The notes under the pieces: generated by a model | Databases searched by the model: none | Told to the model about the DNA's origin: nothing | The model's input: only the letters and a program-made list of their open reading frames with translations | Assembly: GCF_014692875.1 (NCBI RefSeq) | Contig: NZ_CP061171.1 | Location: 1,178,001 to 1,242,000, forward strand | From: Pedobacter riviphilus | GTDB lineage: Bacteria; Bacteroidota; Bacteroidia; Sphingobacteriales; Sphingobacteriaceae | DNA: 64,000 bases | Reading direction: 5' to 3' | Program-made: the position numbers and the translations under genes | Shown: positions 4,618 through 14,154 of the stretch, in pieces | Layout: each line of letters begins with the position of its first letter | How positions within the stretch are numbered: the stretch's first letter is position 1

Positions 4618-4667
4618 TTATAAAAAACCAAACATCTTTGCATCATTACCGATAAAAAATATTGATT

Positions 4668-5093
4668 ATGAATGCACAAAAAATTATTAAAACCAGTAGC
4701 CAGGTTTACATCGTTTTTTCTATCCTGAGTTTATCTTATGTTAGTATTTCATCCATTTGGAATCCGCAAGCAACGATGGATTTAGTATCTATCCAATTGC
4801 CCAATACAGATGCTATAAGCTCTATAAGGGGAATATATGGAGGAGTTGGTTTGCTGATTACCTTTTTGCTGATTTACCTTTTGTTGAATGATATCTGGAA
4901 GGCTCTTTTTTTTCTTTTGCTTTTTTGGACTGCCTATTCCATTTCCAGGTTGATCACAATTTGGGTTGATGGACCTTTGGGTAGTTTCGGTTCGCAATGG
5001 TTAATCATTGAATCAATTTTTGGTATTTTAGCTTTGGTACTGCTGCTTTTACATGCCAGAATCAAGAAAGAAACAAGTGTTTCACAGCAATAA
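4668..5093 (+). CDS. DUF4345-like four-helix membrane protein
   Basis: A 141-residue hydrophobic protein with four predicted membrane helices. The SSIRGIYGGVGLLI segment after the first helix and the charged turn RLITIWVDGPLG are characteristic of DUF4345-type proteins. I place the start at the ATG at 4668 rather than the TTG two codons upstream because it gives MNAQKI with a normal N terminus. It follows the Crp-type regulator on the same strand. No enzymatic role is known for the family. Confidence 0.78.
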   Translation: MNAQKIIKTSSQVYIVFSILSLSYVSISSIWNPQATMDLVSIQLPNTDAISSIRGIYGGVGLLITFLLIYLLLNDIWKALFFLLLFWTAYSISRLITIWVDGPLGSFGSQWLIIESIFGILALVLLLLHARIKKETSVSQQ

Positions 5094-5169: not shown

Positions 5170-6080
5170 ATGTATTTAACTTCATTGCCAGATCATTCCA
5201 ACCCTGATTTTGATCAGGATCTTCATTTTAGACGGTTTAAAATGCAAAACGTTGTTTTTAATACTGTTAGCAGTTATAGTTTTTGCGATGATCATGTAGG
5301 TTGCCTTTCTTTCAAAACAATATTAAAGGGAGAGGAGTGGTACGGGGTAAATAACCGCCGGTTAGCCATCAGGCCGGGGCAGTTCCTGATCTTAAATGAT
5401 GAACAGAATTATTCCTGTAAGATCGATAGCCACGATAAGGTAAGGGGCTATCGGTTTTTTTTCAGAAAGATTTTGCCGCGCAGGTATTTCGGGATACTTT
5501 AAAAAGTGAAGTGGATTTATTGGATAATCCATTTTATAGGAATAATGAACAACCGGAGTTTTTTCAGACATTGAATGATGTCGGTCCGGAATTACAGTTG
5601 CAACTGGCAATGCTTGTTTCAGGCCTCGAAAATAATGGCTATGATGATGGCGCTGAAGAACAACTGTTTTTTTTACTTAGGTACCTGATTAGTACCCTCA
5701 AATCTGATACGGAAAAAATATCAGGGGTTGCGGCCATAAAGCCAAGTTCAAAAATCGAAATTTACAAGCGTTTATGTATTGCGAAGGATTTTCTTCATTC
5801 AACTTTTATGGAGAAGCCCGATTTAAAATTACTGGGTAGTATTGCTTGTTTATCAGTTCCCCAGCTCATCAGGCAGTTTAAATCTGTATTTAAGGTTACG
5901 CCACATCAATACCTGATTCAGTTAAAACTTAAACAAGCTGTAGATTTACTTAAAAACACAGATAAACCCATCCATGAAATAACCTGGGGCAGTGGATTTG
6001 AAAATGAGAGTGCTTTTTGCAGGGCCTTTAAATCTGCATATGGTCTGCAACCTTTAATGTACAGAAAAATGCATCGATAA
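5170..6080 (+). pseudogene. AraC-family transcriptional regulator, frameshifted
   Basis: The N-terminal effector part (5170 to about 5462, MYLTSLPDHSNPDF...) and the C-terminal part (to 6080) are in different frames. The C-terminal part carries the AraC double HTH (LLGSIACLSVPQLIRQFKSV and the GSGFENESAFCRAFKSAYG signature). The break is in the run of eight T at 5455-5462: adding one T gives a continuous product of about 303 residues reading RFFFQKDFAAQVFRD. As written the first frame stops at 5502. The gene precedes the secreted esterase on the same strand. A single-base sequencing deletion is as likely as a true pseudogene. Confidence 0.82.
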
Positions 6081-7207: not shown

Positions 7208-7215
7208 TAACTTTG
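7208..7215 (+). promoter_or_regulatory. TAnnTTTG -7 element ahead of the TMEM220/ebo operon
   Basis: TAACTTTG matches the Bacteroidota -7 consensus exactly. It lies 57 bases before the ATG at 7273 in an A/T-rich stretch following the upstream esterase gene, which makes it the best candidate for the operon promoter. The -33 element is weak. Confidence 0.45.
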
Positions 7216-7272: not shown

Positions 7273-7653
7273 ATGCTTTTAATTATTCTCAACATTATTT
7301 TTTGCATCTCGTTTTTAGGCTTTGCTTATGTAAATTTAAATGATAACGATGCTTTCCTTTGGGTGTCTATCTACCTCAGTGCTGCAATATGCTGTGGATT
7401 GGCTGCAGCAGGTAAATTTTACCCTTTTGCTTATCTGTTTTTAACCGCTTTTTATTTAATTTATGCTGTAATCCTGTTCTTCGCAAAAGATGGCGTACGA
7501 GATTGGATTACCAAATACAGGCGCGAGAGCCTTGTGCAAAGCATGCAGGCCACTAAACCTTATATTGAGCAAACACGAGAATTTTTTGGTCTATTGATTA
7601 TTGCAGGTGCATTATTGATTAATTATTTTGTCTCTGCAGGTATTACCGCTTAA
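7273..7653 (+). CDS. TMEM220-family membrane protein
   Basis: A 126-residue protein with four predicted membrane helices. The YVNLNDNDAFLWVSIY segment after the first helix and the C-terminal TREFFGLLIIAGALLINYF are the recognisable features of the transmembrane family 220. No biochemical function is established. It ends 20 bases before eboA on the same strand and shares the only good promoter, so I infer that it is the first gene of the ebo operon and may act with the EboC membrane enzyme. Confidence 0.8.
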   Translation: MLLIILNIIFCISFLGFAYVNLNDNDAFLWVSIYLSAAICCGLAAAGKFYPFAYLFLTAFYLIYAVILFFAKDGVRDWITKYRRESLVQSMQATKPYIEQTREFFGLLIIAGALLINYFVSAGITA

Positions 7654-7673
7654 GTGCCATTAGACAATTTATT

Positions 7674-8531
7674 ATGAGAGATGATCATATGAAGGCGGTA
7701 AAGGAAATAATAGCGTCTACTGTTAAAAATAATATCAGTGTAGAGGCTGAAAAGTGGCTGGAAGATTTTATACAATCTACGGATAAATCGGCACAGTTAG
7801 CCAAAGTATTTGTAATGCTGCCACGTAAAACGGGCAAATTACCGGTTGCAATTAACAATGATCAGCAAGAAGTACTCCATGCAGCAGGCTTTGGGTATAT
7901 CCGTAACTGGACCATAGACAGGCTTAGTCGAGTGTGGTTATTGGCAGGTTTTGATTTGGGAGATAAAGAACGATTATTTTCAACCATTAATCCTTTATTC
8001 CTGTCAGCAGAGGTGAACGAAGCTGTAGCCCTGTATTCGGCATTGCCATTTTTAGCTCATCCTGAAATTTGGGTAAAGCGTTGTGCTGAAGGAATCAGGA
8101 GTAATATCGGATCGGTTTTGGAGGCGATTATGGAAAACAACCCTTATCCTTCAGAAAATCTGGATGAAGCCGCCTGGAATCAACTGGTGCTGAAAGCTTT
8201 TTTTACGGAGAAAAATATCAACCTCATTATTGGTTTAGATAAAAGAGCAAATCTTGATCTTGCATTAACATTGATAGATTATGCAAAAGAACGCTGGGCT
8301 GCAGGGCGAAAAGTAAATCCACAGCTCTGGCGTCTGGTTGGTAAATTTATCAATGCCGAGATTTTTGACAACCTTAAAGTTGGTTTACAGCGTTACGATC
8401 AAATTGAACAACGCGCCATTGCGCTCGCTGTTTCTCAGTCTGATTATCAACCGGCAAAAGATTATATTAACACTTTTCCTGAACTTAAGTTGGCCCTTTC
8501 AGAAGGGAACTTAAACTGGGATTCATTTTAA
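7674..8531 (+). CDS. eboA: EboA-domain protein
   Basis: A 285-residue soluble, mostly alpha-helical protein with no signal peptide. It is recognised as EboA by its place as first gene of a complete eboABCDEF set and by the helical LxxALPFLAHPEIWVKRCAEGIRSN segment (about residues 123-145), a typical EboA region. The biochemical role of EboA is unknown. In cyanobacteria the ebo cluster is needed for movement of the scytonemin precursor to the periplasm, and in a Pseudomonas the cluster contributes to repelling nematodes. Gaps to neighbours are 20 and 26 bases. Confidence 0.85.
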   Translation: MRDDHMKAVKEIIASTVKNNISVEAEKWLEDFIQSTDKSAQLAKVFVMLPRKTGKLPVAINNDQQEVLHAAGFGYIRNWTIDRLSRVWLLAGFDLGDKERLFSTINPLFLSAEVNEAVALYSALPFLAHPEIWVKRCAEGIRSNIGSVLEAIMENNPYPSENLDEAAWNQLVLKAFFTEKNINLIIGLDKRANLDLALTLIDYAKERWAAGRKVNPQLWRLVGKFINAEIFDNLKVGLQRYDQIEQRAIALAVSQSDYQPAKDYINTFPELKLALSEGNLNWDSF

Positions 8532-8557
8532 CTATTAGAAATTCAAAACAGAAATAT

Positions 8558-9544
8558 ATGTGTTGCAGTAGTTCAATTGAAAGAGATAAAGCATTGATGG
8601 GAGCGCCTGAAGCGTTCGATATTAGTGCTGTAAAGGGGATGAAATTCTTCGACCCACATGTTCACATGACTTCGAGAACAACAGACGATTACCAGGCGAT
8701 GGCCGATGCAGGAGTTGTTGCTTTGATAGAACCTGCATTTTGGTTGGGGCAGCCGCGTACTGGCTTGGATAGTTTTAGAGATTACTATAGTAGCCTGATC
8801 GGCTGGGAGCGTTTCCGTTCTTCTCAATTTGGCATTAAACATTATTGTACCATCGGACTTAACTCAAGAGAGGCCAATAATGAAAGCCTGGCAGAGCAGG
8901 TAATGGAAATACTGCCTTTGTTTATCTATAAAGAAGGTGTAGTTGGCGTGGGCGAAATCGGCTTCGACGATCAAACTGCGGCTGAAGAAAAATATTACAG
9001 ATTACAACTTCAGCTTGCTAAAGAAGCAGGTTTACCCGTACAGGTGCACACGCCACACCGCGATAAGAAAAAAGGTACCCAGCGGAGTATGGATATTGCT
9101 TTGGAACATGGCCTCGATCCTTATAGCGTAATTATCGACCATAATAATGAAGAGACGGTAAAAGAGGTATTAGATAGAGGCTTTTGGGCTGCTTTTACCA
9201 TTTATCCGTTTACTAAAATGGGTAACGAGCGCATGGTAGAAATTGTAAAACAATACGGCGCAGAACGTATTATGGTTAATTCAGCTGCTGATTGGGGCAT
9301 CAGCGATCCTTTGGCAGTACCAAAAACCGCTGCTTTAATGAAAATGCGTGGTTTAAGCGATCAGGATATTGAACTGGTTACTTACCGTAATGCGATTACT
9401 GCATTTGCACAGAGCGGACAGCTGGATGAAGCCGATTTCGACGCACAAAAAAATGTAGACCTTACCGAAAAATTTGAAGGTAACACCATTTTACGGGGCG
9501 GACAGCAACCAAGAACAGATAAATCGTCTATCATCATCAGCTAA
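8558..9544 (+). CDS. eboB: EboB, TatD-type metal-dependent hydrolase
   Basis: A 328-residue TIM-barrel amidohydrolase-superfamily enzyme. Metal ligands expected for the TatD type are visible: His34 and His36 in DPHVH, Glu133 in VGEIGFD, His164 in VQVHTPH, His195 in IIDHNN, and Asp245 in NSAADWG. The N terminus MCCSSS is unusual and does not form a convincing lipobox because no hydrophobic core precedes it. EboB is the hydrolase of the ebo cluster; its substrate is unknown, so TatD DNase activity should not be assumed. It ends five bases before eboC. Confidence 0.88.
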   Translation: MCCSSSIERDKALMGAPEAFDISAVKGMKFFDPHVHMTSRTTDDYQAMADAGVVALIEPAFWLGQPRTGLDSFRDYYSSLIGWERFRSSQFGIKHYCTIGLNSREANNESLAEQVMEILPLFIYKEGVVGVGEIGFDDQTAAEEKYYRLQLQLAKEAGLPVQVHTPHRDKKKGTQRSMDIALEHGLDPYSVIIDHNNEETVKEVLDRGFWAAFTIYPFTKMGNERMVEIVKQYGAERIMVNSAADWGISDPLAVPKTAALMKMRGLSDQDIELVTYRNAITAFAQSGQLDEADFDAQKNVDLTEKFEGNTILRGGQQPRTDKSSIIIS

Positions 9545-9549
9545 AAGCA

Positions 9550-10434
9550 TTGAAAAAAGTAATTGTTTATCTGCGCATGATGCGCCCTGCCAATATTGTA
9601 ACATCAGTAGCCGATATTTTGGCAGGAATTGCCATTTCTGGAATTTTAAGCAATGGATTTTCTATTCCATGGTTGCCCATTGTATTTTTAGCCGCATCAA
9701 CAGCCTGTTTATATGGAGGAGGAATCGTTTTTAACGATGTTTTTGATGCTGATCTGGATAAAATAGAGCGCCCGGAGCGGGCTATTCCGAGTGGCGCAAT
9801 CAGTTTACAGCGTGCAACTACTTTGGGAAGTTTGTTGCTCTTTGCCGGAATTGCTTTGGCTGCATTAAATAGTTTAACATCGGGGTTATTGGCACTTCTG
9901 GTGGCCGTTTTCGCTTTGCTTTATAATAAATTTGGTAAACACCATTCTTTTTTCGGACCGTTGAATATGGGCTTATGCCGTGGATTTAACCTGCTGCTGG
10001 GCTTGAGTATTGTGCCAGAAATGCTATACAGTCATTATTATTTAGCCATTATTCCTGTAATTTATATCTTCTCCATTACGATGACCAGCCGTGGCGAAGT
10101 TCATGGAGGCCATGCTAAAAACTTATATCTGGCCGCCTTTCTGTATGCAATTGTGATCTGCGCTATTGCTTATTTTGCTTTTGTAAACGATAGGTTGCTG
10201 TGGTCGCTGCTGTTTCTGGTTCCTTTTACTTTTATGATTTTCAGGCCACTTTTAAAAGCCATAAAAGAGCCTATTGGTAAAAATATCGGCGGGGCGGTAA
10301 AAGCCGGCGTCATTTCACTTATTTTGATGGATGCAGCCTGGGCTGTAACTTTCGATGCCCTGATTTTGGCTTTTATCATTGCGGCTTTATTGCCGTTATC
10401 CATTTGGCTCTCTAAATTATTCGCCGTTACTTAA
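9550..10434 (+). CDS. eboC: EboC, UbiA-family prenyltransferase
   Basis: A 294-residue integral membrane protein with about eight or nine helices. The first Asp-rich motif is clear (NDVFDADLD, residues 62-70), which in UbiA enzymes binds the Mg-prenyl-diphosphate. The usual second Asp-rich motif is replaced by SRGEVHGGH (180-188). No ATG lies at the expected N terminus; TTG at 9550 gives LKKVIVYLRMMRPAN, while ATG at 9577 would start at MMRPAN. It should attach a prenyl group to an aromatic or polar acceptor in the membrane, making a lipid-linked intermediate; the acceptor is unknown. Confidence 0.88.
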   Translation: MKKVIVYLRMMRPANIVTSVADILAGIAISGILSNGFSIPWLPIVFLAASTACLYGGGIVFNDVFDADLDKIERPERAIPSGAISLQRATTLGSLLLFAGIALAALNSLTSGLLALLVAVFALLYNKFGKHHSFFGPLNMGLCRGFNLLLGLSIVPEMLYSHYYLAIIPVIYIFSITMTSRGEVHGGHAKNLYLAAFLYAIVICAIAYFAFVNDRLLWSLLFLVPFTFMIFRPLLKAIKEPIGKNIGGAVKAGVISLILMDAAWAVTFDALILAFIIAALLPLSIWLSKLFAVT

Positions 10435-10461
10435 CCATCAAACACACATTCTCAAATTGAT

Positions 10462-11625
10462 ATGGAACATTTACATCAATCCTTTACCGTACAATATAAT
10501 TATAATGTTTTCTTTACTTCATCGCTTTTTTTGCCTGAAAACGAACTGTTAAACAGTTTTTTAGTTAACCTAAATCCGGCTGTTGCAGTAAAGAAGATTT
10601 TGTTTGTAATAGATGAAGGTGTAGCAAATGCACACAAAGAGCTTAATAACCAGATTAAAACCTATTTTGCAAAATACCCTCAAACGGAGCTCGTTCAGGA
10701 TATCTTAGTTATTCCTGGGGGAGAACAAGTGAAAAACGACACTAAATATTTTGATCAGGTATTGGAAGCCATCCATATTCATGGTATCGACAGGCATTCG
10801 TTTGTTGCTGCAATAGGTGGCGGTGCAGTACTCGATATGGTAGGTTATGCAGCAACGGTTGCACATCGCGGTATTAAACACATCAGAATTCCAAGTACTG
10901 TGCTTTCACAGAACGATTCGGGTGTTGGGGTAAAAAACGGAATCAATTATTTTAATAAAAAGAACTTTTTGGGCACTTTTTCGCCACCTGTTGCTGTTTT
11001 TAATGATGAAATCTTTTTAAGTACTTTATCCGATCGTGATTGGCGATCAGGTATCGCCGAAGCAATTAAAGTGGCGCTGATTAAAGACCGCCAATTTTTT
11101 GAGTGGCTGGAAGTGAATGCCATTGCGCTTGCAAATCGGGATACCACAGCCATGAACTACCAGATTTGGAAATGCGCAAAACTCCACATGGAGCATATCC
11201 GCAGTGCCGATCCTTTTGAAAATGGTTCGGCCCGACCGTTGGATTTTGGCCATTGGAGTGCACATAAACTAGAATACTTAACCAATTTCGAAGTGAGGCA
11301 TGGCGAAGCTGTTGCCATGGGTATTGCCTTAGATACCGTATATTCCAATTTATCGGACAGGATCAGTGCAGAAGATGCTCAAAGGGTAATCAACCTGATT
11401 CAGCAACTTGGCTTCGAGTTAACACATCCATTGTTACAGGTTAGCGAAGGCAATAGCCCAATTTTGCAGGGACTGGAAGAATTTAGGGAACATCTTGGCG
11501 GCGAGCTAACCATCACTTTACTTACGGGCCTGGGCAGTGGCGAGGAAGTGCATGAAATTGATGCCAATATTTTAAAACAAGCAGCAGAAAATTTAAATAA
11601 CCAAACCGCTATTATTCAACATTAA
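10462..11625 (+). CDS. eboD: EboD, 3-dehydroquinate-synthase-like sugar-phosphate cyclase
   Basis: A 387-residue NAD-dependent cyclase of the AroB superfamily. The nucleotide loop GGGAVLDMVGY is at about 119-129. The substrate loop reads IPSTVLSQNDSGVGVKNGIN. Zn ligands expected from the family are Glu200 (SGIAEAIK), His264 (DFGHWSAHK) and His280 (VRHGEAVAMG). It is a divergent paralogue rather than the housekeeping AroB, and it is embedded between EboC and EboE with spacings of 27 and 3 bases. The product is probably a cyclitol or deoxy-cyclic acid used by the other Ebo enzymes; this is inference from the family. Confidence 0.9.
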   Translation: MEHLHQSFTVQYNYNVFFTSSLFLPENELLNSFLVNLNPAVAVKKILFVIDEGVANAHKELNNQIKTYFAKYPQTELVQDILVIPGGEQVKNDTKYFDQVLEAIHIHGIDRHSFVAAIGGGAVLDMVGYAATVAHRGIKHIRIPSTVLSQNDSGVGVKNGINYFNKKNFLGTFSPPVAVFNDEIFLSTLSDRDWRSGIAEAIKVALIKDRQFFEWLEVNAIALANRDTTAMNYQIWKCAKLHMEHIRSADPFENGSARPLDFGHWSAHKLEYLTNFEVRHGEAVAMGIALDTVYSNLSDRISAEDAQRVINLIQQLGFELTHPLLQVSEGNSPILQGLEEFREHLGGELTITLLTGLGSGEEVHEIDANILKQAAENLNNQTAIIQH

Positions 11626-11628
11626 GCT

Positions 11629-12801
11629 ATGAAATTAACTTCTGGCCATTTAACCTTCTGTACCAATATTTATGCAGGCGAAAACTGGATGGCACATTTT
11701 GCTGTGCTGAAGGCTAGTTTTCCGGTATTGAAAGCGCAACTGTCGCCTAATGCACCGATGGGCATCGGTTTACGTCTTTCCAATCTCGCCAGTATCGAAT
11801 TGTTGGAAGATCATCATCTGGAATCGTTTAAGCAATGGCTGGAGCAGGAAGGTGGATATGTTTTCACCATGAATGGATTTCCATATGGCGGTTTTCATCA
11901 TACCAGGGTTAAAGATCAGGTACATGCACCCGATTGGACAACGGAAGATCGCGTTGAATATACACTCCGCTTGGCCAAAATCCTTTCACAATTGCTTCCT
12001 GACGATATGGATGGGGGCATTTCAACCTCGCCATTAAGTTATAAGCCCTGGTTTACAAATGCCGAGGCAAGAAAAAATGCCACTGCCAGAGCAACTGCCA
12101 ATATGATGAAGGTTGCCGAGGGGTTAAATCACATACAGCGCCAAAGCGGCAAGGTGATCCATTTGGATATTGAACCCGAACCTGATGGTTTTCTTGAATC
12201 TGGTGCAGAATTTATTGATTGGTACGAAAATGTACTTTTACCTGTCGGGAATGATGAAAACCTGATCAAAAATCACATCCGTTTGTGTTATGATGTTTGT
12301 CATTTCGCAATCGGTTACGAACCGCATACAGCCATTATCAACGAATTGCAAGAGAAAGGCATTAAAATTGGGAAAATCCAGATCAGTGCTGCGCTAAAAG
12401 CTAAATTGCCAGCATCTGTTTCGGAAAGAGCCGCGGTATTGGATCAGCTCGGCCGCTTTGATGAACCTACTTATCTTCATCAGGTAATAGCAAGAAAAGA
12501 TGATGGATCGCTATTGCGCTATCCCGATCTTGAAGATGCAATGGCTGAAGGCGAAAATCTGGCGGTACAGGAGTGGCGCGCACATTTCCATGTACCTATT
12601 TTTGTTGAAGATATGGGCTTAATCCAATCTACACAGTCAGACATTATCGAGGTACTAAACTTGCAAAAAAATAGCCCTTTTACTACTCATTTGGAAGTAG
12701 AAACTTATACCTGGGAGGTTTTACCAACAGCTTTGAAAGCGCCTTTAAACGATTCCATCATCAGGGAACTGGCCTGGGTAAAAACATTATTAGAACAGTA
12801 G
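11629..12801 (+). CDS. eboE: EboE, metabolite-traffic TIM-barrel protein
   Basis: A 390-residue protein resembling sugar-phosphate isomerase/epimerase TIM barrels. Recognisable EboE segments are NGFPYGGFHHTRVK (82-95), HLDIEPEPDGFLE (178-190) and LCYDVCHFAIGYE (219-231), which supply plausible metal ligands Glu182, Glu184, Asp222 and His225. Three bases separate it from both eboD and eboF, so the three are tightly coupled. It is annotated in other genomes as metabolite traffic protein EboE; direct enzymology is lacking. No signal peptide is present, so it should act in the cytoplasm. Confidence 0.9.
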   Translation: MKLTSGHLTFCTNIYAGENWMAHFAVLKASFPVLKAQLSPNAPMGIGLRLSNLASIELLEDHHLESFKQWLEQEGGYVFTMNGFPYGGFHHTRVKDQVHAPDWTTEDRVEYTLRLAKILSQLLPDDMDGGISTSPLSYKPWFTNAEARKNATARATANMMKVAEGLNHIQRQSGKVIHLDIEPEPDGFLESGAEFIDWYENVLLPVGNDENLIKNHIRLCYDVCHFAIGYEPHTAIINELQEKGIKIGKIQISAALKAKLPASVSERAAVLDQLGRFDEPTYLHQVIARKDDGSLLRYPDLEDAMAEGENLAVQEWRAHFHVPIFVEDMGLIQSTQSDIIEVLNLQKNSPFTTHLEVETYTWEVLPTALKAPLNDSIIRELAWVKTLLEQ

Positions 12802-12804
12802 ATT

Positions 12805-14154
12805 ATGCATAAAACCGTTGTTATTGACATAGTAGGCCTATCTTCATCCGTAATAGGAGCGCATACGCCTTTTATCCAAAAATATATTTCTGAAAACCAC
12901 TTCAACACCATCGAACCCTTGTTGCCGGCGGTTACCACTTCGGTACAGTCGAGTTATCTTACAGGTAAATATCCATCAGAAAACGGTATTGTAGGGAATG
13001 GATGGTACGATCATGCCGATGCTGAAATTAAATTCTGGAAGCAGTCTAACAAACTGGTAAATGCAGAAAAAATATGGGACCTGGCCAAAAAAGAAGATCC
13101 AAACTTTACCTGTGCCAATATGTTCTGGTGGTACAACATGTACTCTACGGTTGATTATTCGGTAACACCACGCCCGAATTACCTGGCCGATGGGCGTAAA
13201 TTACCCGATTGTTATTCGCAGCCGGCCGAACTGCGCGACCATTTACAGGCTAAACTGGGACAGTTTCCTTTGTTTCAGTTCTGGGGGCCTGGTGCAAATA
13301 TTAAATCAACGAGATGGATTGCAGATGCCTCAATGGAAACTGAAAAGCTGTACAATCCTACGCTAACCTTAATTTATTTGCCCCATTTAGACTATTGCCT
13401 GCAAAAGTTTGGTCCTGAGCTAGATAAAATCAGTACGGAGCTAAAAGAAATCGATCAGGTGGTAGAAGAATTGGTGCGTTTTTATGAAGGCAGGGGTGCA
13501 CGCATTATTTTACTTTCTGAATATGGTATTGCGCCTGTAAACAAGCCAATTCACCTTAACCGTTTGTTCAGGGAAAACGGATTAATCCAGATCCGTGAAG
13601 AAAGAGGCTTAGAGCTGCTCGATCCGGGTGCTTCAAAGGCGTTTGTAGTAGCCGACCACCAGGTAGCACATGTTTACATTAATGATAAAAGTGTAACTGA
13701 ACAGGTAAAGGCTTTATTGAAAAGTGTACCTGATATTGAGTTGGTTCTCGATAAAACAGAACAGGAGAAATATCACATTAATCATGACCGTTCGGGCGAT
13801 TTGGTACTGGTTGCCAAAGAAAACAGCTGGTTTACCTATTATTTTTGGCTGGATGATGCTAAAGCGCCAGATTATGCGCGGGTAGTTGATATTCATAAAA
13901 AACCGGGTTACGATCCCGTAGAAATGTTCATGACCTCTAAATTGAGGGCAGGGTATAAACTTTTAAGGAAAAAAGCCGGTTTCCGTTACGTAATGGATGT
14001 AATTCCGCTTGATGCCACTTTGGTTAAAGGATCGCACGGTAGCATTAAAGTAGCTGATCGGTTTAAACCTGTTCTGGTTACTTCAAAAGCAATTGATAAA
14101 ACCTTAAAGGCACCAGATGTTTATCAGGTGATTTGGGATAGTTTAACTGTTTAA
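12805..14154 (+). CDS. eboF: EboF, nucleotide-pyrophosphatase/phosphodiesterase-like protein
   Basis: A 449-residue member of the alkaline-phosphatase superfamily, closest in layout to nucleotide pyrophosphatase/phosphodiesterases. Asp8 (VIDIVGL) and Thr44/Thr45 in PAVTTSVQSSYLTG fit the first metal ligand and nucleophile; HLD at 194-196 and HGS near residue 419 fit later ligands. The usual central D-H-G motif is replaced by SEYG (238-241). There is no signal peptide. It closes the ebo operon, three bases after eboE. It probably cleaves or transfers a phosphodiester on the pathway intermediate; the substrate is unknown. Confidence 0.87.
   Translation: MHKTVVIDIVGLSSSVIGAHTPFIQKYISENHFNTIEPLLPAVTTSVQSSYLTGKYPSENGIVGNGWYDHADAEIKFWKQSNKLVNAEKIWDLAKKEDPNFTCANMFWWYNMYSTVDYSVTPRPNYLADGRKLPDCYSQPAELRDHLQAKLGQFPLFQFWGPGANIKSTRWIADASMETEKLYNPTLTLIYLPHLDYCLQKFGPELDKISTELKEIDQVVEELVRFYEGRGARIILLSEYGIAPVNKPIHLNRLFRENGLIQIREERGLELLDPGASKAFVVADHQVAHVYINDKSVTEQVKALLKSVPDIELVLDKTEQEKYHINHDRSGDLVLVAKENSWFTYYFWLDDAKAPDYARVVDIHKKPGYDPVEMFMTSKLRAGYKLLRKKAGFRYVMDVIPLDATLVKGSHGSIKVADRFKPVLVTSKAIDKTLKAPDVYQVIWDSLTV

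Follow-up and report, generated by a model that had tools for sequence, protein, structure and literature searches.

The 64,000-nucleotide stretch of Pedobacter riviphilus DNA analysed here, called the window, covers positions 1178001-1242000 of a Pedobacter-like chromosome assembled as one contig of 5,825,361 bases (5.8 Mb). At 7273-14154, it carries seven consecutive plus-strand open reading frames (ORFs) encoding a TMEM220-family membrane protein followed by EboA to EboF, with intervening gaps of 20, 26, 5, 27, 3, and 3 bases. An earlier note had described seven packed plus-strand genes separated by 3 to 27 bases and had read them as a complete eboABCDEF operon led by TMEM220; the ORFs lie exactly there, and profile searches recovered the whole set, with EboA recognized by a domain model only and EboE by NF035939 and not by PF01261. 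The six ebo genes adjoin one another on one strand in the order ABCDEF, which makes this an ebo operon of the ABCDEF type, and the leading gene belongs to the same Pfam family as the human and bacterial TMEM220 proteins. Linkage and co-occurrence across Bacteroidota indicate that TMEM220 is very probably a real functional partner of Ebo in this phylum and not a bystander. The seven genes are as follows:

7273..7653, plus strand: TMEM220-family membrane protein, 126 aa (PF15071, 87.4 bits, cut-off 27).
7674..8531, plus strand: eboA, EboA-domain protein, 285 aa (EboA domain model NF035938, 164.5 over 50; stricter EboA family model NF035937, 203 under 320).
8558..9544, plus strand: eboB, TatD-like metallo-hydrolase, 328 aa (PF01026, 62.4, cut-off 27).
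9550..10434, plus strand: eboC, UbiA-like prenyltransferase, 294 aa, TTG start (PF01040, 66.7 over 34.2; equivalog model NF035940, 392.7 over 250).
10462..11625, plus strand: eboD, member of the sugar phosphate cyclase superfamily, 387 aa (PF01761, DHQ_synthase, 114, cut-off 24.2).
11629..12801, plus strand: eboE, TIM-barrel (xylose-isomerase-like) protein, 390 aa (equivalog model NF035939, 499.3 over 250; PF01261, 17.2 under 31.1).
12805..14154, plus strand: eboF, protein with the phosphonoacetate hydrolase/NPP (nucleotide pyrophosphatase/phosphodiesterase) fold, 449 aa (PF01663, Phosphodiest, 215.5, cut-off 23).

The closest named relatives of this locus are from Pedobacter spp., with EboE identity of up to 89% among the best 80 of 586 loci confirmed by EboE similarity. 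These 80 named loci come from close relatives, and the rates found in them are therefore not phylum-wide rates. Six of the 80 are cut before eboA and were dropped, which leaves 74 for the linkage count; TMEM220 stands directly before eboA on the same strand, with gaps of up to 220 bases, in 63 of these 74, so that the comparison of eboA neighbourhoods proposed in the earlier note came out in favour of linkage. The seven-gene order was seen again in 63 of the 80 named relatives, including one locus (L063) that is cut before eboF, while the other 11 of the 74 loci have no TMEM220 before eboA (L044, L072, L074, L079, L080, L083, L086, L087, L090, L091, and L092). TMEM220 also adjoins ebo in other arrangements: it immediately follows eboF in L121, L123, and L124 and immediately precedes eboE in L125; in L114, from a distant lineage, it stands before eboA, and L115 has it on the opposite strand, 0.8 kb away from eboF. 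In a decayed operon at L138:6143-8488, an eboA ORF is followed by the C-terminal part of eboF in two overlapping pieces and, last, by TMEM220; the genome concerned has no EboE match. When ORFs within 6 kb of ebo were clustered by BLAST, a procedure that could miss fast-evolving neighbours, the most widespread of the other flanking genes reached 14 of the 93 ebo loci. These clusters, each in 14 loci, were an AraC-like regulator, a LysR-like regulator, and an acetyltransferase-like protein (families named by eye); they lie at varying distances, largely in close Pedobacter relatives, and were rejected as ebo partners. Separate from the question of TMEM220, one locus has an extra EboF-like ORF 610 bases before TMEM220 (L037), and another has an extra EboD-like ORF 3.4 kb after eboF (L035). 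In genomes of family f87 that have no TMEM220 match, ebo is arranged as two divergent units, CBA + DEF or FED + ABC (L184, L185, and L187).

Co-occurrence was surveyed in Bacteroidota genomes, using a class sample and a phylum sample that overlap and were searched with the EboE model NF035939 and the TMEM220 model PF15071. The class sample of 345 genomes includes 17 with ebo, 40 with TMEM220, and 16 with both, so that TMEM220 is found in 16/17 ebo genomes versus 24/328 others. The phylum sample of 395 genomes includes 31 with ebo, 50 with TMEM220 (49 of them above the Pfam cut-off), and 24 with both, which gives 24/31 ebo genomes versus 26/364 others. The corresponding Fisher p-values are 7e-16 (class) and 1e-18 (phylum), and both ignore kinship. 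A third sample of 59 relatives has 15 genomes with ebo (by the EboE protein), 19 with TMEM220, and 15 with both, which linkage makes nearly trivial. With the samples pooled, TMEM220 is present in 45 of the 52 ebo genomes, and another 47 genomes carry it without EboE. The single control family that was run, the small membrane family DUF4345, has a similar frequency (35/345 versus 40/345 for TMEM220) and occurs in 2/17 ebo genomes versus 33/328 others in the class sample (p 0.53). Counted by hand at the family level among the rows listed, TMEM220 is present in an ebo genome in 15 of the 17 families with ebo; a further 12 families carry it and lack ebo, with f93 included solely through a match below the cut-off. 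The 14 named control genomes gave no match to TMEM220 or to EboE. Plasmid records gave no TMEM220 at E 1e-3; EboC was found in eight of them, one of which, pAT1 of Aureibacter (Bacteroidota), has eboA-F. Among the genomes of the class and phylum samples that have both ebo and TMEM220, the two lie within 10 kb of each other in 11/31; in the other 20/31, the distance exceeds 10 kb or the genes are on separate contigs. The earlier suggestion that TMEM220 is an unrecognised ebo partner thus gains from the linkage in the named loci, from the other positions in distant lineages, from the genome-wide co-occurrence, and from a control that lacks this pattern.

The TMEM220 tree was built from 150 rows and 129 columns and leaves many forks unresolved. 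It contains a clade of 68 copies (support of 99 in the Shimodaira–Hasegawa-like approximate likelihood ratio test, SH-aLRT) with only copies from ebo genomes, 66 linked and two unlinked, of which 64 (63 named loci and the window) had been sampled through ebo. The label "linked" needs eight changes on the tree versus a mean of 50 after shuffling. A sister clade of 13 is composed of seven rows from non-ebo genomes and six from ebo genomes, and a further clade of 19 (SH-aLRT 88) comes mainly from ebo-less genomes, most of its members adjoining a receptor gene, together with copies from the ebo genomes G377, G242, and G521.

Several observations weigh against TMEM220 as an ebo partner. TMEM220 genomes without an EboE match amount to 24/40 in the class sample and 26/50 in the phylum sample, and 7/31 ebo genomes of the phylum sample have no TMEM220 match. 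At six ebo loci from TMEM220-less genomes, ORFs of 85-260 aa lying up to 3 kb from ebo were screened for at least three hydrophobic stretches, and no substitute small membrane protein was found. A TonB-dependent-receptor gene lies immediately upstream, on the same strand, of 17 TMEM220 genes (L117, L119, L141, L142, L147-L149, L152, L154-L158, L169, and L173-L175), with the receptor identity taken from a Pfam run on two of the receptor proteins; 15 of these genes are in ebo-less genomes, and the other two are in G377 and G242, where ebo lies elsewhere. This neighbourhood is a possible second context of the TMEM220 family, and the co-occurrence in G377, G242, and G521 may be coincidental; when these three are set aside, TMEM220 is found in 14/17 (class) and 22/31 (phylum) ebo genomes. 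Among the 11 named genomes without a linked TMEM220, 10 carry one elsewhere: it belongs to the ebo clade in G722 and G723 and to a separate small clade in G725, G726, and G729, while G724, G728, G730, G731, and G732 carry only the sister paralogue that is also seen in non-ebo genomes. The eboA-F set of plasmid pAT1 from Aureibacter tunicatorum (L189:6960-8228) has no TMEM220 match in the 20.8 kb examined. Furthermore, the conserved TMEM220 residues are common to ebo and non-ebo copies, and ebo is functional in Nostoc, for which the paper does not mention TMEM220 (PMC6282210). Since some ebo genomes lack TMEM220 and many TMEM220 genomes lack ebo, TMEM220 is a frequent but not obligatory partner in Bacteroidota and is not exclusive to ebo. 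As a separate observation, the eboA-F set of pAT1 is preceded by the gene of a ferritin-like protein.

The ebo operon and the prenylated cyclitol idea that the earlier note put forward are already in print. The six-gene operon, with the Bacteroidota order ABCDEF, was described together with its occurrence in Bacteroidota, Cyanobacteria, Leptospira, and the plastids of eustigmatophytes, and an isoprenoid-cyclitol product was proposed in 2016 (PMC5133447); a cyclitol-lipid carrier was proposed in 2018 (PMC6282210). The window has the same six genes in the same order as the operon of PMC5133447 and differs in the seventh gene, TMEM220, that leads it; additional genes inserted into the operon were declared beyond the scope of that paper. 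The cluster of Nostoc punctiforme resembles the window, by its description, in EboA, B, C, E, and F and differs from it in that TMEM220 is not reported there (PMC6282210). Likewise by description, the EDB cluster of Pseudomonas fluorescens NZI7 (Burlinson et al., as cited in PMC6282210) shares the full ebo set with the window; there, the set forms part of a larger cluster. What the earlier note stated on scytonemin, nematode repulsion, and plastid transfer agrees with PMC6282210, PMC9655573, and PMC5133447. What is new is the place of TMEM220 as a seventh ebo gene in Bacteroidota, one that repeatedly adjoins the operon and co-occurs with it. Literature searches found no paper that makes this link, and the word TMEM220 occurs zero times in the main text of PMC5133447 and in PMC6282210. 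No bacterial TMEM220 appears among the best-matching TMEM220 papers, and those that also contain the word "bacteria" are concerned with human cancer or RNA.

The Ebo enzymes have conserved sites, two of which depart from those of their better-known relatives. EboB keeps D32, H34, H36, E133, H164, H167, and D245, each in at least 97% of 86 sequences, and EboC keeps the aspartate-rich motif N62-D63-x-x-D66-x-x-x-D70 together with R144 in 87/87 sequences. The designation of EboD as AroB-like in the earlier note holds for the superfamily only: its score against the aroB equivalog TIGR01357 is 217.8, under the cut-off of 305, and substrate residues are replaced. EboD passes NF004852, a model that is also named 3-dehydroquinate synthase (570.7 over 333). 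The genome has a separate aroB (G000:C1:2925153-2926127, scoring 343.3), which rules out EboD as the only dehydroquinate synthase of the cell. EboD keeps E200, H264, and H280 at positions that we take to be the zinc ligands of the superfamily. Dehydroquinate synthases, among them the product of the separate aroB, have Arg, Asn, and Lys at the positions of residues 257, 261, and 242, which in EboD are A (S in many relatives), D, and H. A257 and D261 align with what are presumably the substrate-site residues R264 and N268 of Aspergillus nidulans dehydroquinate synthase (AnDHQS), and H242 is taken to sit at the position of Lys250. Because the Arg, Asn, and Lys of the substrate site are replaced, the sequence of EboD fits a substrate without the carboxylate of 3-deoxy-D-arabino-heptulosonate 7-phosphate (DAHP), as was argued from a tree in PMC5133447. 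The solved cyclase 4p53 ranked sixth or seventh among the EboD matches.

EboF had been called NPP-like in the earlier note, which is right for the fold (phosphonoacetate hydrolase 1ei6 at E 4.9e-19, with NPP structures also matched) and, by sequence alignment, does not extend to the metal site. In the sequence alignment, Q200, E239, and Y240, present in 91/91 sequences, stand at three positions aligned with zinc ligands of phosphonoacetate hydrolase, a role that we assume for those residues, as we take the canonical two-metal ligands to be the D..H and DHG motifs. A three-sequence MAFFT alignment instead placed DHG on D284/H285 of EboF, so that other invariant residues could bind metal. Near the start, position 8 is D in 78 and N in 13 of the 91 sequences, and T44, D196, and H411 are kept in 91/91. 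As three zinc-ligand residues are missing in the alignment, EboF may not be an ordinary phosphodiesterase, and a site that may argue against plain phosphodiesterase activity is likewise new.

From these observations, we infer a chemistry, a product, a direction of movement, and a role for TMEM220 as follows. EboD would cyclise a sugar phosphate other than DAHP; EboB, EboE, and perhaps EboF would modify its product or a related precursor; and EboC would add a prenyl chain at the inner membrane. TMEM220, with four helices and a conserved charged cluster at one membrane face, would handle the membrane-bound prenylated product and would present or flip it, or help to hold EboC, EboA, or EboB at the membrane. 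As a result, a small metabolite could leave the cytoplasm, by analogy with ebo in Nostoc (PMC6282210). Taken as a whole, the explanation by a seven-gene TMEM220-eboABCDEF operon, with TMEM220 as a functional partner and with this mechanism, is the one we favour over its rivals, with some reserve, while the specific membrane-handling role of TMEM220 is put forward tentatively. In its broadest form, the proposal is speculative: TMEM220 might be the missing membrane component of Ebo that binds, flips, or hands over the prenylated product, the family might consist of handlers of isoprenoid-type or similar amphiphiles, the human Golgi protein included, and the phosphodiesterase fold of EboF might have been repurposed and lack the canonical two-metal site. 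The Ebo system occurs in several phyla and in plastid genomes, and with a seventh, membrane-embedded partner there would be a candidate protein for the proposed translocation step. The link to ebo would also offer a way to the function of the poorly characterised TMEM220 family, and the altered sites of EboF and EboD change the reaction scheme that one would try first. Pedobacter and Mucilaginibacter are culturable, which makes the TMEM220 partnership testable.

The alternative that survives best, though it seems unlikely, is that the Ebo product is a secondary metabolite, prenylated and diffusible (a derivative of an aromatic acid, for instance), and not a carrier, with TMEM220 as its exporter or self-protection protein. 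EboC homologues of marine Bacteroidota farnesylate quinoline acids such as 8-hydroxyquinoline-2-carboxylic acid (8-HQA) in vitro (PMC9235831), and Escherichia coli carrying the Pseudomonas EDB cluster, which contains ebo (PMC6282210), makes indole compounds that repel nematodes (PMC9655573). The UbiA-297/EboC proteins of Maribacter, Zobellia, and Algoriphagus resemble the window EboC in lying inside a Bacteroidota ebo set and in having an aspartate-rich motif with a conserved arginine in a neighbouring helix, R145 there versus R144 in the window by position; unlike for the window EboC, an in vitro substrate is established for them (PMC9235831). Against a diffusible product stand the Nostoc deletions: in every ebo deletion studied there (eboD was not among them), the scytonemin monomer stays behind in the cytoplasm, and the authors found no monomer conjugated to a lipid (PMC6282210).

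The model of TMEM220, from 103 aligned sequences, has a predicted local distance difference test (pLDDT) score of 88.9 and four predicted membrane helices at 2-23, 27-45, 51-70, and 96-121. W30, Y34, and G106 are invariant in these sequences, and N23, D24, D26, E99, R102, and E103 are nearly so. Loops rich in Lys and Arg lie on the cytoplasmic side, according to the positive-inside rule. Loop 71-95 holds six such residues and is therefore predicted to be cytoplasmic; loop 24-27 would then face the cytoplasm as well, and the conserved acids and arginine would be gathered at one membrane face. These residues and the shared side of the two loops would also suit a membrane enzyme that acts on the prenylated product through the Asp/Glu/Arg cluster, a reading that is rather improbable: no known enzyme matches the fold of TMEM220 convincingly, and a Foldseek search gave no known fold below E 1 (best E 1.2). 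FceRI-beta, CD20, and NACHO were rejected as TMEM220 relatives, as their matches were in the chance range for helical bundles. The human TMEM220 protein resides in the Golgi, and knocking it down alters the shape of the Golgi and disturbs the secretion of glycoproteins (PMC6979480); as far as that account goes, these data fit a role in membrane traffic only loosely.

It is more doubtful still that TMEM220 is a neutral gene at the head of a single ancestral operon of Sphingobacteria and Chitinophagaceae, co-inherited without a role in Ebo. Related genera supply most of the linked copies, and 66 of the 73 linked TMEM220 rows of the tree fall in one clade, as such an origin would have it. However, linkage is also found in other families, before eboA, after eboF, and before eboE; the co-occurrence holds in the 20 of 31 genomes in which the genes are far apart or on different contigs; and no other flanking cluster is comparably retained. 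Least credible is a co-occurrence due to lifestyle or kinship, with larger aerobic genomes carrying both families and no functional tie between them: kinship is ignored by the Fisher tests and TMEM220 is present in several ebo-less families (e.g., f9, f88, and f101), but DUF4345, a single control of similar size and prevalence, is found in only 2/17 ebo genomes, and in nearly all families with ebo an ebo genome also carries TMEM220, with 12 others having it without ebo. A partnership of TMEM220 with Ebo is thus preferred to both.

Upstream of the operon lies one further feature:

7208..7215, plus strand: TAACTTTG, a promoter-like element of the Bacteroidota -7 type, ending 57 bases before the TMEM220 start codon.

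Its pattern, TAnnTTTG, which we take to be the consensus of the Bacteroidota -7 promoter element, occurs in the 150 nt that precede TMEM220 in 31 of the 63 linked loci, the window included, versus a mean of 7.1 and a maximum of 15 after mononucleotide shuffling (200 shuffles); given the kinship of the loci, this is weak evidence. Farther upstream, an AraC-like regulator (named by eye) at 5170-6080 is broken into two ORFs, 5170-5502 and 5511-6080; in close Pedobacter relatives, it is a single protein of approximately 303 aa, suggesting that the gene of the window is disrupted or that the assembly is in error. The window also encodes, at 4662-5093, a small membrane protein of DUF4345, the family that served as the control.

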